A stretch of DNA of 45,872 nucleotides from Candidatus Gastranaerophilales bacterium (GTDB lineage Bacteria; Cyanobacteriota; Vampirovibrionia; Gastranaerophilales; Gastranaerophilaceae). Shown here in pieces: positions 31,066 through 40,437 of the stretch. Each line of letters starts with the position of its first letter. The first letter of the stretch is position 1. The notes beneath the pieces are model-generated. The model was not told the DNA's origin and searched no databases. It worked only from the letters and a program-made list of their open reading frames with translations. A program made the translations under genes and the position numbers. The stretch covers positions 1 through 45,872 of the forward strand of contig CALUVX010000170.1 in the NCBI GenBank assembly GCA_944324295.1, written 5' to 3'.

Positions 31066-32124
31066 TTGGTAAACGCAATACAAAATTCAGATATGCAAAA
31101 TAAAAAATACCGCGATCCGCTAAACAGACCGGTACCCGTTTTAATGTCATATTCAAATGAAATAGGTACAGCAATATCTGAAATTGCGCCAAAACTCGGG
31201 GCAGCACTTTGGGCACCTACATTTATGTATCTTGGCGCAGACATTTACGATAAATATAAAAATGACAAGGACAGCTATAATCCTAGCGGCAAAAGAGCTT
31301 TAAAAAGGGCAATTTTTCAGGGGCTGACATCTTTAATAGCCATGCCTGCAATAATCTTTGCCGGCCAATGTGCTGTTTCTCCTCTTGGGAAAATGGACAA
31401 ATCCGGAATTAGCGGAAATGCAAAAGAGGCAATATACAAACATACAAAAAGCGTTATTGAACAGGCTCATGGAACATCTCTTGACAGTTATGAACACTTT
31501 AAAGACACAATTATAACCACGCTGAACAATAAAATTAATTCTCGAAACAACGAAAAACATACAATTAATATATTCAAACGCATTTATAATAAGCTTTTTA
31601 CCAAAAGGTATATTCTTTTAAATAATGATAAAACAAAGGTTGAAAAATTTGCACAGGAAAATGCCAAAAAAACTTTCAACATAATGAAAGCACTAAAAGA
31701 AGGCGACAAAAAAAATATTCCGCATAAAATTTATAAAAAATACAATGAAATATTGCCTGCAATGAAGGAGACATATAAAGAGGGCGACTATTCATATCAG
31801 GCTACACGCAACGCTCTGAAAGAATATCAAAATTCACTTATATTCAGAAACAAGCTTTTGAAAACTTTTGGAGGCTTTACAGCGCTGTTTTTATTTGCAA
31901 ATCCCGTTAGCAGCTTTATTGAAAAAAATGTAATGAAAAAATATATCAACCCGGGCATTGACCAAATAAGCACAGGCTTCGTAAACCAATCAAGGATGAA
32001 AAATATATTTAACACAATGAATGAAAAAGCTAATTTTGTTTCAGAAAACGTGCAGACATCGAACCTACTTCAGAGATTAAAGATTCAGCACGAATTGAAG
32101 TCAAAGGCTGCGGAATCTCAGTAA
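31066..32124 (+). CDS. Hypothetical three-helix membrane protein (paralogue of the 38816 gene)
   Basis: A 352-residue protein with three hydrophobic segments at about 45-65, 78-100 and 268-290, separated by a long basic helical region. The segments read LGAALWAPTFMYLGADIYD, GLTSLIAMPAIIFAG and GGFTALFLFANPVSSFIE, and correspond in order to three segments of the protein at 36642-38816. The start is weak: TTG at 31066, or ATG at 31093, with no good Shine-Dalgarno sequence. A TATAAT box lies near 31026-31031. Its last 95 bases overlap the end of the CpaF-like gene on the opposite strand. Confidence 0.65.
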   Translation: MVNAIQNSDMQNKKYRDPLNRPVPVLMSYSNEIGTAISEIAPKLGAALWAPTFMYLGADIYDKYKNDKDSYNPSGKRALKRAIFQGLTSLIAMPAIIFAGQCAVSPLGKMDKSGISGNAKEAIYKHTKSVIEQAHGTSLDSYEHFKDTIITTLNNKINSRNNEKHTINIFKRIYNKLFTKRYILLNNDKTKVEKFAQENAKKTFNIMKALKEGDKKNIPHKIYKKYNEILPAMKETYKEGDYSYQATRNALKEYQNSLIFRNKLLKTFGGFTALFLFANPVSSFIEKNVMKKYINPGIDQISTGFVNQSRMKNIFNTMNEKANFVSENVQTSNLLQRLKIQHELKSKAAESQ

Positions 32125-33400
32125 CATAATCTCCGTCATCAACAAATTTTGCAATTACTTTAACAGATAAAGCAGCAGTACGCGCCGGTTTGAGCTCAAC
32201 TATAGATGTTATACGCTTAACACCGTCTTTTGTCTGATTAATCTGCACAATATAATCATAGCTTGAATACACTCTAGCTTTCGCATATTTTTCCGGCAAA
32301 TGCTCCTCAGAAATAAACCCGGCTGTAAGTTTTGAAATTGCAGCCTCTATGGAAGAAGCTCTTAATGTAAAAATACAACCGCTTAATTCAGATGTCTCCG
32401 GCACCGGCACATTAAAATCCGAAATAACATAATCTGGAACCGTTTTCAATATATCAGACAAAAGTTCTTTGTAATCAGGAGAACATCTGTCTGTCAAAAA
32501 TTTCATAAAAGCCGAACCTTCACAAGTAAAATAAGGGGTATTCTCAAATAAAGCTACACGTTTATTTAACAGTGTAGAACTTATTAATGTATCTAAGAGA
32601 GTTGTTTTACCTGAATTTATTTCGCCCGATATAACAACATTTTTCTTTGCATCGACAATTGAGACAAGAAAATCAAATATTTCCCTTGTCATCATATTTT
32701 TTTCAAATAATTTGCTCATAGAACAGGGGAGCTGTTTTCTAATCGTAAGATTATAACCACCCTGGGACAAAGAAGGCATGATAACAGTAATACATAAATT
32801 ATTAAACCTTAAATCCCAAATGTTTTTGCTGTTATCTATCTTAACACCGGACATAGCGGAAATGTTATTAATTATAAAACACATTTGTTTTTCATTAATA
32901 TTCATTTCCGTATTCAAGACTCTTCCGCCAATTTCTATATGAACACTGCTTGTTCCGTTCACAAAAACGGCATCAACATTATCCTGTACAATAAGATAAT
33001 CCAGAGGTCCAAAGCCCATAATTGATGTAAAAAGTTTATCAATCAATGTTTCTTTTTCTTCAGTATTCAAGATAATATTTTCGGAATCAAGTTTATTATC
33101 TACAAAACTCTTTATCAGATTTTTTTGCTGTTCAGAGTTATAATCAAACCAAACAGGAATTGAATCTATTTTTTCCAATAATGTTTTTTTTAAATCAGCT
33201 TCCATATCATCCGGAATATCAGATTTTTCCGCATTTTGGGAGATTTCAGGCTGATTAATATTATCTTCTGATTGTTGAATAGATTTTACAGACTGTAAAA
33301 CAGATTTGGAAAGCATAAATTTCTTAGGCTTTTCTTTTGCTAAATCTGAATTTTCATCACTTTTTTCAAATCTGCTGCTTAATTTAATACTATGTAACAC
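32030..33400 (-). CDS. CpaF/TadA-like secretion ATPase with degenerate motifs
   Basis: A 456-residue protein of the CpaF branch of type II/IV secretion ATPases. The N-terminal domain has IMGFGPLDYLIVQDNVDAVFVNG near residue 127, matching the CpaF signature, and Walker A GEINSGKTT lies at 259-267. Past this it diverges: the usual Asp-box, the G-E-x-R-G-x-E Walker B segment and the T-G-H-x-G motif are replaced by DYVISDFNV and unrelated sequence, so ATP hydrolysis may be reduced or different. The start is GTG two bases after the stop of the CpaE-like gene, so both are translated together. The protein is likely to belong to a Tad-type pilus or secretion apparatus. Confidence 0.75.
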   Translation of the reverse strand: MLHSIKLSSRFEKSDENSDLAKEKPKKFMLSKSVLQSVKSIQQSEDNINQPEISQNAEKSDIPDDMEADLKKTLLEKIDSIPVWFDYNSEQQKNLIKSFVDNKLDSENIILNTEEKETLIDKLFTSIMGFGPLDYLIVQDNVDAVFVNGTSSVHIEIGGRVLNTEMNINEKQMCFIINNISAMSGVKIDNSKNIWDLRFNNLCITVIMPSLSQGGYNLTIRKQLPCSMSKLFEKNMMTREIFDFLVSIVDAKKNVVISGEINSGKTTLLDTLISSTLLNKRVALFENTPYFTCEGSAFMKFLTDRCSPDYKELLSDILKTVPDYVISDFNVPVPETSELSGCIFTLRASSIEAAISKLTAGFISEEHLPEKYAKARVYSSYDYIVQINQTKDGVKRITSIVELKPARTAALSVKVIAKFVDDGDYVTEIPQPLTSIRAESLISEVGSMSARFLKQN

Positions 33401-33402
33401 TT

Positions 33403-34572
33403 CTATACCTTTCCAAGCTTATTACCGAATTTTTTACGATAAACACTGTCAGAAACCATTAATGCCAAGTTTTTATAACTCAAAGCCACATTTGAATCCG
33501 GATTAACATCACAAACCGGGACGCCCTTGTTAATTGCGGACATCATAGTAAAATAGTTGTTCGGGATTTTCCAATACAATTTTTTACCAAGAACCTCTTC
33601 AACATCTTCTGCCTTAATCTCATCATTTTCCATATAACGATTAATCAACACCTGAACTTTATCTTCTTCAAACCCTAGTTTTTCAAACAATTCCAGACAG
33701 CGTTGACAATTTCTTATGGCCGGAAGATTTACAATAGTAGCCAAAAATATTAAATCGGAATTTTCCAATGCAGTCATTGCCTTGCTGTCAAAACCTCCGG
33801 AAGTATCGACAACAACGTAAGAAAATGTATCTCTTAATATGTTAAAAAGTTTGGTTATATCTTTTGACGGAACATCATCAACTTGTTTGAAATAAGGAGG
33901 ATCTGCAAGAACATACAAACTTGTATCCTTATACTTTTCTAACGTTGAAAGAAGAAAGTCCTCATTTATCTTATCAAGATTTTGAAGCATATAAGAAATA
34001 TTGAAAGATGGTTTTAAATCCAAAAAAGTCGTAATATCTCCGAGCTGAAAATTCAAATCAATAAGAGCGACATTTTCTTTTGTTATTTTTGCAAGTTCAA
34101 GGGCAAGATTTGTAGCAATAGAAGTTTTACCGACGCCTCCCTTGTTTGAATAAACCGTAATAACACGACATTTAGACTTTTTAGGTTTTATAAGATTCAA
34201 ATCACAATAAATTTTATTCAAAACTTCAAAAAATTCTTCTTTTATCAACGGTAAAGCGAGAAAATCGGACGCACCAACTCTCATTGCTCTAATAACCAAA
34301 TCCACATCTGGCTTGTCAGACAGAGCTATTACCCTGCAATAATTAAATTCCAAAGTTATTTTAGAAATAAAATTTAATCCCTGTTCCTGATAATCCGAAA
34401 CATCAGCAATAACAAGAACCTTGGACAGCTCTTTTATTGCATTATAAGCCTTTGATAAATCAGAAGTTTGAGCAAGAAATGAAAAAGTATCACACTCCTG
34501 AATATACCGTTTCAAAAGTTCTGATGTATATTCACGTTCAGATATAACAATTATAGGAACAGACTGTTTCAT
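33403..34572 (-). CDS. CpaE/TadZ-like protein: pseudo-receiver plus ParA/MinD-type ATPase
   Basis: A 389-residue protein. Residues 1-125 resemble a response-regulator receiver domain, with ALSDKPDVDLVIRAMRVGASDFLALPL as its last third, but lack the usual acidic pocket, as in TadZ/CpaE proteins. Residues 136-389 form a ParA/MinD-type ATPase with the deviant Walker A KGGVGKTS at 144-151, VALIDLNFQLGDITTFLDL and VVVDTSGGFD. In Tad systems this protein localises the pilus machinery at a pole. It lies 46 bases downstream of the first pseudopilin and immediately before the CpaF-like gene, forming one operon. Confidence 0.85.
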   Translation of the reverse strand: MKQSVPIIVISEREYTSELLKRYIQECDTFSFLAQTSDLSKAYNAIKELSKVLVIADVSDYQEQGLNFISKITLEFNYCRVIALSDKPDVDLVIRAMRVGASDFLALPLIKEEFFEVLNKIYCDLNLIKPKKSKCRVITVYSNKGGVGKTSIATNLALELAKITKENVALIDLNFQLGDITTFLDLKPSFNISYMLQNLDKINEDFLLSTLEKYKDTSLYVLADPPYFKQVDDVPSKDITKLFNILRDTFSYVVVDTSGGFDSKAMTALENSDLIFLATIVNLPAIRNCQRCLELFEKLGFEEDKVQVLINRYMENDEIKAEDVEEVLGKKLYWKIPNNYFTMMSAINKGVPVCDVNPDSNVALSYKNLALMVSDSVYRKKFGNKLGKV

Positions 34573-34617: not shown

Positions 34618-35520
34618 CTAAAATCTAAATGGATAATCTTTAGGAATTTTCCAGCCGTTATATTGTATCAATGCGGTACAATAATGTCTTGAATCGTCAT
34701 TATTTAAACGGCAGCCGTATTGTCCATTTATCAAACCGTTTTCCGTTCCATCCCAGCTAAATTTGTAAGGTTCTACAATGTTTCTGTTTTCATTTGTTGC
34801 AGCACTCATAAAAAATGTAAAAAAATCTTTTCCCATAATATTAGTTATATTATTTGATTTGGGATAAAAATAAATATGAGTAGCCGTACTTGTTGTAGTA
34901 TCAGTTGCAGTTTCAGAATTAAAATAATTAAACATATCAAGCTTTGTGCCATCAGCAAGATAAACCCATATATGCTTACTGTTAGACTTATCTTTTTCAA
35001 CCTTTAAAGTTTTTACATAAGGTGCAAAATAGGTATTCCAAAAGTTTATCATTCCGTCAGCATCATTATAACTTGTTGCTCTGTCCCAATACTCAAACTC
35101 TCCATAATCAACCTCAGCCTGCTTAGCAGCCTGATTCATTATTGAATAAAATTTTTCCAAACGAGTTTCAACTACATGACGGTTATAATTTGATATTAAT
35201 GCCGGCAGTGTCAGAGCTGCAACAACACCAATTATTCCAAGAGTTATTAATACTTCCGCCAATGTAAATGCAATTTTTGATTTTAGTGAAGTGTGAAAGG
35301 TGAAGAGTGAAGCGATGTTATCTCCCTCCCAGATTAGGGAGGGACTAAGGGGCAATCTTCTATTGTTTGATTGATTGAAACCCATCCTAACCTTCCCTAT
35401 AAAGGGAAGGAACTTGTTTTTATTTATAACAAAACGTGAGAAAGAAACACTATTATTCCTGATAATAGCATATCTTCCTACCCTCTTACCTTCTAACCTT
35501 CCGGTGATAAGCTTGCGCAA
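34618..35520 (-). CDS. Type IV pseudopilin-like protein with long repeat-derived leader (locus 1)
   Basis: The open frame from TTG 35520 gives 300 residues. Residues 85-115 carry the class III signal FTLAEVLITLGIIGVVAA (Phe +1 at 85, Glu +5 at 89, Ala at -1), followed by a helix and a globular part ending GWKIPKDYPF. Prepilin peptidase would cut before Phe85 and discard an 84-residue leader, far longer than the usual 6-30. That leader is encoded by a repeat also present at 39.4-39.7 kb. The best start signal is further upstream: ATG 35627 behind AGAGGAG, but a G10 tract puts it one base out of frame. With G11 or G8 the whole would be one frame of about 336 residues. It heads the operon with the CpaE- and CpaF-like genes. 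Confidence 0.8.
   Translation of the reverse strand: MRKLITGRLEGKRVGRYAIIRNNSVSFSRFVINKNKFLPFIGKVRMGFNQSNNRRLPLSPSLIWEGDNIASLFTFHTSLKSKIAFTLAEVLITLGIIGVVAALTLPALISNYNRHVVETRLEKFYSIMNQAAKQAEVDYGEFEYWDRATSYNDADGMINFWNTYFAPYVKTLKVEKDKSNSKHIWVYLADGTKLDMFNYFNSETATDTTTSTATHIYFYPKSNNITNIMGKDFFTFFMSAATNENRNIVEPYKFSWDGTENGLINGQYGCRLNNDDSRHYCTALIQYNGWKIPKDYPFRF
35260..35505 (-). repeat. Pseudopilin leader repeat, copy 1
   Basis: About 245 bases that align with 39440-39731. Shared pieces include ACCGGAAGRTTAGAA, a hairpin CTATTAT/ATAATAG, CCTTCCC/GGGAAGG, the segment coding for QSNNRRL and TCCCTCCC/GGGAGGGA. It is coding in the pseudopilin frame and ends exactly at the AFTLAE codons. The string of small palindromes looks like mobile or extragenic repeat material placed inside a gene. 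Confidence 0.75.
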
Positions 35521-35576
35521 TAAATGCGCAATTATATGAAAACAAACGACTTGACATCCGGCCTTATTGACCTCTG

Positions 35577-35627
35577 CTAGCTGAAAATGCCCCCCCCCCG
35601 AAGTTTCAGGTTAATTAACTTTTTCAT
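35577..35627 (-). CDS. Truncated upstream frame of pseudopilin locus 1 (out-of-frame state)
   Basis: Starting at ATG 35627 with AGAGGAG six bases upstream, the frame reads MKKLINLKLRGGG and, with the G10 tract as given, ends after 16 residues at TAG. One additional G gives HFQLAEVNKAG and then joins the pseudopilin leader without a stop. This is probably the authentic start of the gene in a phase-off form, or else a short leader peptide. Confidence 0.5.
   Translation of the reverse strand: MKKLINLKLRGGGIFS
35590..35599. repeat. C10 (G10 on the coding strand) homopolymer
   Basis: Ten C on the plus strand, ten G in the minus-strand message, 10 codons into the upstream frame of pseudopilin locus 1. 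Runs of this length are exceptional in such an AT-rich sequence; the only other one is in the matching place of the second pseudopilin locus. Confidence 0.9.
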
Positions 35628-35641
35628 AAACAACTCCTCTC

Positions 35642-35837: not shown

Positions 35838-35865
35838 ATTATAACATATTTTTTAACAAATTCAA
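35838..35865 (-). promoter_or_regulatory. Promoter of the pseudopilin-cpaE-cpaF operon
   Basis: On the minus strand, TTGAAT (35860-35865) and a perfect TATAAT (35838-35843) are spaced 16 nt apart. Initiation near 35831 gives a leader of about 200 nt containing the structured RNA. Confidence 0.65.
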
Positions 35866-39284: not shown

Positions 39285-39338
39285 ATGTTTAATAGAGACG
39301 CTTTGAAACTGCCCCCCCCCCGCAAAACTCAAGTGTAG
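39285..39338 (+). CDS. Truncated upstream frame of pseudopilin locus 2 (out-of-frame state)
   Basis: ATG 39285 with AGGAGG seven bases upstream reads MFNRDALKLPPP through the C10 tract and stops at TAG after 17 residues. With one more C (or two fewer) the frame stays open to TGA 39725-39727, giving about 147 residues that include the repeat-encoded leader. The start signals are the best in the region, which makes this the likely true start. Confidence 0.5.
   Translation: MFNRDALKLPPPRKTQV
39312..39321. repeat. C10 homopolymer
   Basis: Ten C on the coding strand, nine codons after the ATG of pseudopilin locus 2. It has the same length as the tract at locus 1 and leaves the frame wrong by the same single base. 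Confidence 0.9.
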
Positions 39339-39727
39339 AGTGGATTTATAGATTTTTAATTAGAAGACCGGAGGGCAAGAAGACAAGAGGGCAAGCCGGT
39401 ATCATTAGTGTCATCCCGAACTTGTTTCGGGATCTCGTTACCGGAAGATTAGAAAGTAAGAGGGCAGGAAGATATGCTATTATCAGTAATAATAATAGCG
39501 TTTCTTTATCACAGTTTGATATAAATAAAAATATGTTCCTTCCCTGTATAGGACTCTGCCGACCAAAACGATTGAGTATCGTTTTGGGAGAGGCAGTTAG
39601 GAAGGGTTTTGATCAATCAAACAATAGAAGATTGCTACCCACCCCTATCCCCTCCCTAATCAGGGAGGGAGATAACCTCGTTTCACTCTTCACCCTTCAC
39701 TTAAATCAAAGATTGCATTTACATTGA
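39339..39727 (+). other. Leader frame of pseudopilin locus 2, separated from its start
   Basis: In the frame that an eleventh C would open, this stretch has no stop until TGA 39725-39727. It encodes a CCCGAA/TTCGGG palindrome product (VIPNLFRDL), then VTGRLESKRAGRYAII and QSNNRRL as in locus 1. Seven bases are missing relative to locus 1 just before the end, so it does not fuse to the pseudopilin. Its stop codon instead overlaps the TTG start at 39724 (TTGA), an arrangement suited to translational coupling. Confidence 0.5.
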
Positions 39728-39731
39728 CAGA
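39440..39731 (+). repeat. Pseudopilin leader repeat, copy 2
   Basis: This copy aligns with 35260-35505 and carries an additional nested inverted repeat at 39556-39596: CTGCC/GGCAG and CCAAAACGAT/ATCGTTTTGG around TGAGT. Upstream is ATCCCGAA/TTCGGGAT (39413-39433), an inverted repeat of a kind widespread in bacterial intergenic DNA. The copy ends at codons for AFTLTE, after which a second AFTLAE follows about 15 codons later, so the insertion site looks duplicated. Confidence 0.75.
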
Positions 39732-40437
39732 AGGTGCTACGCACGTAGTCCTGCCGAATAGTCAACGTAAAGTCGCATTTACTCTGGCTGAGGTTTTGAT
39801 AACCCTTGGTATTATCGGTGTTGTTGCAGCTATGACAATGCCTTCAATAGTCGGGCATTATAAAAGGCAGGAAACTTTATCCAGACTTAAAAAAGCTTAC
39901 ACAACCATTAATCAGGCACTGAAATTATCTGAAGCTGACAACGGAGAATATGAATACTGGGACAGCGGATTTGATTTAGGTGCAGAAGAATATTTGAATA
40001 AATACTGGCTGCCATACTTTAATGTTTTAAAAATTTGTAATACTTATTCAGAATGTAATTATAACAATGCATATCCATGGACAAGATTAAACGGACAAGA
40101 TTACACTCTTACATTTAGCAGTTCAGGTCTCCGCATACCATTTATTACAACAGACGGTATTCTTTACTCAATATCGAGCGCAGGAGCAGGTACTGATGGC
40201 AATCTTGTTGAAAGCTTCAGTATTTATATTGACATAAACGGCTCCAGAGGCCCAAATACAATAGGTAAAGATTTTTTTATATTTGAGCGTGTCAAAGGTA
40301 AAGGAATATTACCAACCTGTTACAACTATAACACAAGTGCTATAGAAGCAAATTGCAGTAAAACAGGGGTCGGTGTTTGCTGCGCACAATGGATAATAAT
40401 GAGTGGCTGGCAGTTTCCTAAAGATTATCCGTATTAA
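39724..40437 (+). CDS. Type IV pseudopilin-like protein (locus 2)
   Basis: From TTG 39724 the frame gives 237 residues. The class III signal FTLAEVLITLGIIGVVAA starts at Phe19 with Ala at -1 and Glu +5, so the leader would be 18 residues (EGATHVVLPNSQRKVA). The globular part is about 200 residues, contains several Cys and ends GWQFPKDYPY, like locus 1. It probably assembles into a type II secretion or pilus-like filament, or is a minor pilin. No Shine-Dalgarno sequence precedes TTG 39724; translation may rely on coupling to the upstream leader frame, whose stop overlaps it. Confidence 0.75.
   Translation: MTEGATHVVLPNSQRKVAFTLAEVLITLGIIGVVAAMTMPSIVGHYKRQETLSRLKKAYTTINQALKLSEADNGEYEYWDSGFDLGAEEYLNKYWLPYFNVLKICNTYSECNYNNAYPWTRLNGQDYTLTFSSSGLRIPFITTDGILYSISSAGAGTDGNLVESFSIYIDINGSRGPNTIGKDFFIFERVKGKGILPTCYNYNTSAIEANCSKTGVGVCCAQWIIMSGWQFPKDYPY

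Follow-up and report, generated by a model that had tools for sequence, protein, structure and literature searches.

A ten-G tract one base short of the pseudopilin frame in Candidatus Gastranaerophilales: a probable, strand-locked replication-slippage phase switch

The window analysed here is a stretch of 45,872 nt from a 1.78 Mb metagenome-assembled genome (MAG) of Candidatus Gastranaerophilales in 170 contigs. On its minus strand lies a pseudopilin locus that begins with a promoter-like element, TTGAAT-16-TATAAT with the TG of an extended -10 (35838..35865), followed by the Shine-Dalgarno motif AGAGGAG (35634..35640) and an ATG at 35627 that opens the first 28 nt of a prepilin leader (35600..35627, MKKLINLKL..). 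A G10 tract with a C on both sides (35590..35599) then separates this start from the prepilin frame by one base, and a TAG in the 0 frame (35577..35579) follows. Beyond it come a long, repeat-bearing leader (35269..35589) that is open solely in the frame reached with eleven Gs and has 57 partial DNA matches in the genome, and a predicted mature pseudopilin, FTLAEVLITLGIIG... (34618..35268). Two genes on the same strand continue the locus: a CpaE-like ATPase with a receiver domain and a ParA/MinD-type domain (33403..34572), 45 nt downstream of the pseudopilin, and a CpaF-like T2SSE ATPase (32030..33400).

All coordinates given for the start site and tract in the preliminary description were reproduced, as was the distance of 107 nt between the ATG and the in-frame TTG at 35520. 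With ten Gs the frame from the ATG is closed after 16 codons by the TAG at 35579-35577, and tracts of 9 or 12 lead to stops after 20 and 21 aa, respectively. One G more or two fewer does open the frame into FTLAEV, as had been proposed, with products of 336 aa (G11) or 335 aa (G8); FTLAEV begins at residue 121 of the G11 product. This product has the leader, cleavage site and F-T-L-A-E hydrophobic N-terminus of a prepilin, and scores above the cut-off for PF20318 (DUF6613) and below it for N_methyl (E 0.0024, 17.8 bits against a cut-off of 21.2). The TTG at 35520 was discarded as a start, having no good Shine-Dalgarno motif, while the ATG leaders of relatives are ordinary prepilin leaders. Comparison of the translated leaders indicates that the ATG is the real start: where relatives have short leaders (G003, G026), the G11 frame encodes an ordinary prepilin whose cleavage site lies about 20-22 residues after the ATG.

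The promoter of the preliminary description stands as a candidate with 10 of 12 matches, but promoter matches generally lie near the shuffle mean. A TATAAT is found within 90 nt upstream of the ATG at 99 of 172 tract loci, against 0.11 expected per 90 nt. Its "leader RNA" is no more than the stretch of roughly 200 nt that runs from the promoter to the ATG, and an Rfam search of it gave no match. Leaders in the host genome have a median length of 107 residues and a maximum of 211, and many have been enlarged by repeats without stop codons in the G11 frame. The repeats between tract and cleavage site are interspersed and partly palindromic, recalling Rickettsia palindromic elements. At one locus (L127, contig C54 of G003) the tract and its flank are tandemly duplicated, giving G11, 18 nt and G10 within a single leader. 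An anti-Shine-Dalgarno hairpin, pairing the AGGAGC of the ribosome binding site with AGCTCCT after the tract, was suggestive in G003-type loci and was dropped, since on visual inspection it is not conserved at the host-genome loci.

The window holds a second such locus on the plus strand, where an ATG at 39285 is followed by C10 at 39312-39321 (39285..39321), so that the G-run again lies on the minus strand. Here too the leader frame is interrupted before the frame of the second pseudopilin (39724..40437). Setting the tract to 8 or 11 does not remedy this, as the leader frame then ends at 39727, 4 bases inside the pilin frame starting at TTG 39724; from its sequence, this copy looks interrupted, or coupled through the TTGA overlap.

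It had been suggested that the first pseudopilin heads the operon with the two ATPases and that loss of its translation could lower them by polarity. This may hold at the window locus, but it is weak as a general proposition: orthologs of the CpaE-like protein occur in nearly all relatives, and a pilin lies upstream of CpaE in only 9 of 22 assessable relatives, so the ATPases normally manage without that pilin. Eight of these nine loci have a G10 tract needing 11; a CpaE-linked pilin in G006 (L158) lacks the tract and has its start in frame. The pilin is a lineage-specific gene upstream of CpaE/CpaF, and polarity is not a conserved design.

The window arrangement is not due to chance, because near-complete relatives are almost devoid of G7 or G9 runs and because the arrangement recurs at 57 places in the host genome. 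That genome carries more than 60 tracts of G9 or longer. At 57 loci a Shine-Dalgarno motif and an ATG precede a G or C tract, and 56 of these need a length of 8 or 11; the majority stand at 10 and some at 9, three (L020, L021, L040) have the in-frame length of 11, and L044 is interrupted. Among the 58 relatives searched, all Candidatus Gastranaerophilales MAGs and all consensus assemblies, the pattern was present in 30 of the 33 genomes of the genus and in two other genera of the family, and was nearly absent outside the family. Exact counts over the 33 genomes are 148 G9, 1621 G10 and 150 G11. The host genome and its relatives hold from dozens to about 170 copies of the exact ten-G stretch, mainly at pilin gene starts, and at least 1437 of the 1621 G10s (hand sums) have C on both sides.

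After removal of duplicates, 174 distinct pilin loci could be compared, and the requirement proved uniform: 161 need 8 or 11, and only two need 9 or 12. Of the 142 loci at length 10, 135 lack a single G, 7 are already in frame and no locus has one G too many; all 13 loci at length 9 need 8 or 11, and at length 11 there are 9 in-frame loci. ATG-to-tract distances span all three phases, in G and C types alike, and the requirement is still 8/11. On the pilin tree we counted at least 70 phase changes against 13 changes of required length, a contrast that overstates compensation because leader modules may shift between genes as a unit (orientation changes 26 times too). Among 138 one-short loci, 126 have a stop in the assembled frame within 5 codons after the tract; in the other off frame the stop distances are scattered.

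Length 10 with a +1 offset is found in most species. Consensus lengths in G026 are 169 at ten, none at nine and 6 at eleven. In G029 the length is 9 at 4 of the 5 loci read, with the requirement still 8/11. G002 resembles a classical phasome: its pilin and sugar-type enzyme genes have tracts of 11 in mixed phases. In this genome, four loci (L281, L276, L277, L278) concern a sugar-nucleotide epimerase-like gene and other likely surface-carbohydrate genes, with G11 tracts in mixed frames, and one of these tracts encodes a glycine-rich nucleotide-binding loop. C-G10-C also occurs in frame near the N-termini of non-pilin proteins (L142 in G032; G026 C1 at 67056 and 262382), including a long protein and an AAA-type ATPase.

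The lengths do differ at the DNA level. About 16% of tracts deviate from 10, as 9s and 11s, and some of these are ON; identical 28-nt leaders carry G9 in L022 and G10 in L041. ON alleles at 11 (L020, L021, L040, L151, L153, in G000 and G013) coexist with OFF alleles at 10 in the same genomes. As in contingency loci, the repeat tract lies within the coding sequence and its length sets the frame, and both ON and OFF lengths are found among close relatives. The preliminary description had looked to tract lengths in relatives for support, and the outcome is mixed: variation exists, yet the length is otherwise nearly uniform, close to the single shared length that it regarded as contrary to phase variation. 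Loss of mismatch repair was rejected as a cause, MutS being present at full length, and viral contigs were dropped as an extra source of variants, their matches looking like chance.

Such uniformity raises the question whether length 10 is real. The true tracts could be G11, with the pilins in frame and one G systematically lost in sequencing or assembly: database G-tract lengths have been wrong in one published case (PMC9187656), the named relatives checked are all short-read style MAGs, and a single rule of 11 would tidy most loci. General undercalling is nevertheless unlikely, because a glycosyltransferase of the host genome, whose PF00535 (Glycos_transf_2) domain spans a G10 tract, requires exactly 10 to be in frame, as do several non-pilin genes of G026, and because lengths of 11, 12 and 13 are also called, including the 150 G11. 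Different assemblers, told apart by their contig names (NODE, k141/k127, idba), agree on 10 as well. We consider a systematic undercall highly improbable as the explanation of the pilin loci.

The second regularity is one of orientation. The G-run is confined to one chromosome strand, so that genes on that strand have G10 and opposed genes C10. A 396-kb contig of G026 has 47 runs of at least 8, 45 of which measure exactly 10, and in every one the G lies on the minus strand; pilins encoded on that strand carry G10 and those on the plus strand C10. In three near-complete genomes (G025, G006, G018) the exact-10 tracts form 127 adjacent pairs, among which the orientation switches only 5 times and never more than once in a contig (P about 1e-30 under random orientation). 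Every host-genome contig with several listed tracts, the window included, is uniform in polarity, and G3-G6 runs in the same DNA show no such polarity, against 57:0 for G10. The G-run strand is the G-rich strand wherever tested (window, G026, G006, G031), and on contig C1 of G025 a polarity switch (35-212 kb) brackets a change of GC-skew sign near 50 kb. From GC skew and general knowledge, the G-run strand is probably the leading strand. The origin marker dnaA was absent from the polarity switch points. In G025, G006 and G018, G10 tracts appear sparse around one polarity switch, which likely marks the origin side, and dense over the other chromosome half. Both the strand lock and the nearly uniform default length are observations new over the preliminary description.

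KOPS- and Chi-type motifs are strongly co-oriented with replication and act as protein recognition sites. The tracts share this strong co-orientation, on a leading-strand assignment made by GC skew, and C-G10-C might accordingly be a polar chromosome motif, comparable to KOPS, Chi or uptake/recombination signals, that a DNA-binding protein recognises, with pilin leaders as its usual host and perhaps a role in pilin gene conversion. Its exact length, the conserved C on both sides, a polarity exceeding that of shorter G-runs and its occurrence in non-pilin genes would all fit. However, unlike such motifs, the tract here also decides the reading frame; the frame arithmetic, with 135 of 142 loci one short and none two short, would have no role in a recognition site, and most copies lie 19-60 nt after a pilin start codon. 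We regard this alternative as very unlikely.

The strand lock also bears on programmed frameshifting at the RNA level, in which RNA polymerase would slip on G10/C10 and add one base in some transcripts, making G10 a functional, constitutive allele. The exact length of 10 would suit this, as would a needed change at ten-tract loci that is always +1 and never -1, the lack of gene decay, the conserved early 0-frame stop, and deviating tracts such as L087 (G12) and L120 (G11) that retain the +1 offset. Yet the tract tracks the chromosome strand and not the mRNA, opposed genes having C10 with the same length and offset; non-pilin genes carry the tract in frame at length 10, and slippage there could only be harmful; and G9 tracts with an unchanged downstream frame exist. 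An earlier argument of ours, that exactly 10 everywhere means programmed frameshifting, was dropped given the strand lock and the genes in frame at 10. Slippage during transcription is thus in our view unlikely, and slippage during replication is favoured because the tract is a duplex-level, replication-oriented feature that acts alike in genes with G10 and C10 mRNAs.

The slipped-strand phase variation proposed in the preliminary description is still the best reading, though not as an isolated, freely varying contingency locus, since nearly all loci stand at 10; we retain it despite this uniformity because about 16% of lengths differ, the tracts are locked to a replication strand and the reading frames are intact. 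In our judgement the G10 tract is probably a replication-slippage phase switch, one of many serving a large pilin repertoire, with 10 as the off length and 11 as the on length. The switch would sit inside the cleaved leader of the prepilin. With the tract at its equilibrium length, 10, translation would run into a stop a few codons past it, and gain of one base in the DNA (8 being the other in-frame length) would join the start to the pilin frame. Each genome would carry this switch at dozens to more than 100 pilin genes, all of them OFF at the default of 10; each cell would then express few pilins, and populations would differ in which. The strand lock may equalise slippage at all loci, perhaps leaning towards insertion, so that one default length serves all; with the requirement one above this attractor, pilins would be OFF by default and ON transiently. 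We suggest that the fixed orientation biases slippage, which might explain a requirement that is +1 throughout. Campylobacter G tracts mostly gain bases at G8-G9 and mostly lose them at G10-G11 (work cited in PMC4085013), which makes an attractor near 10 plausible. A MAG consensus would read 10 nearly everywhere even if single cells differ.

Several points weigh against the replication switch. If it were symmetric, loci requiring 9 or 12 should be in use as well, yet these are nearly absent; the intact MutS does not favour slippage; the consensus lengths are tighter than single-cell contingency loci predict, unless the MAG consensus is the population mode; and G029 stands mostly at 9. A fuller version, in which each genome has a homopolymer phasome of 50 to about 170 sites, with its default of 10 and its +1 direction set by the strand lock, the repertoire being silent with a random few ON per cell and C-G10-C possibly served by a dedicated factor, is put forward only tentatively.

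Neisseria pilC, present as one or two copies of a gene for a tip/assembly protein, has a poly-G switch in its signal peptide. Likewise, a poly-G tract within the leader here sets a pilus component by frame, but for dozens of pilin subunits (for the Neisseria phasome see PMC5953494). By analogy, the closest known system appears to be the pilus switch of another gut commensal, Bifidobacterium breve UCC2003, a precedent for replication slippage at a pilus G-tract, where the sortase-dependent pilus clusters bbr_0113 and bbr_1889 have a G10/G11 tract early in the first pilus gene and an annotated default that is OFF by one base; the in-frame length is enriched in vivo, and downstream polarity is discussed (PMC9187656). 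That system differs from ours: the genome has two such loci, the pili are sortase-dependent and not made of type IV-like pilins, loss of one G turns them ON, and no strand lock is reported in the paper (PMC9187656). Campylobacter jejuni, whose poly-G phasome comprises 29 loci (PMC4965091), resembles our genomes in its intragenic poly-G tracts of 8-11 in surface genes, acting as independent switches genome-wide (PMC4965091, PMC4085013). Far more loci are involved here, with a nearly uniform default length and OFF state, in a pilin family instead of mixed surface genes, and with G and C forms fixed by chromosome strand. In the open-licence literature we found no paper on phase variation in Gastranaerophilales, and none treating poly-G, leading strand, orientation and phase variation jointly.

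Gene callers will miss or split most pilins in these genomes, and the uniform one-short design predicts rare 11-G molecules at every locus. The strand lock offers a natural way into the effect of replication direction on G-tract slippage. If the switch is real, these would be gut bacteria with a very large set of poly-G switches, mostly in one surface-protein family and OFF by default, and uncultured gut cyanobacteria would possess a homopolymer-based system for expressing few of many pilins.
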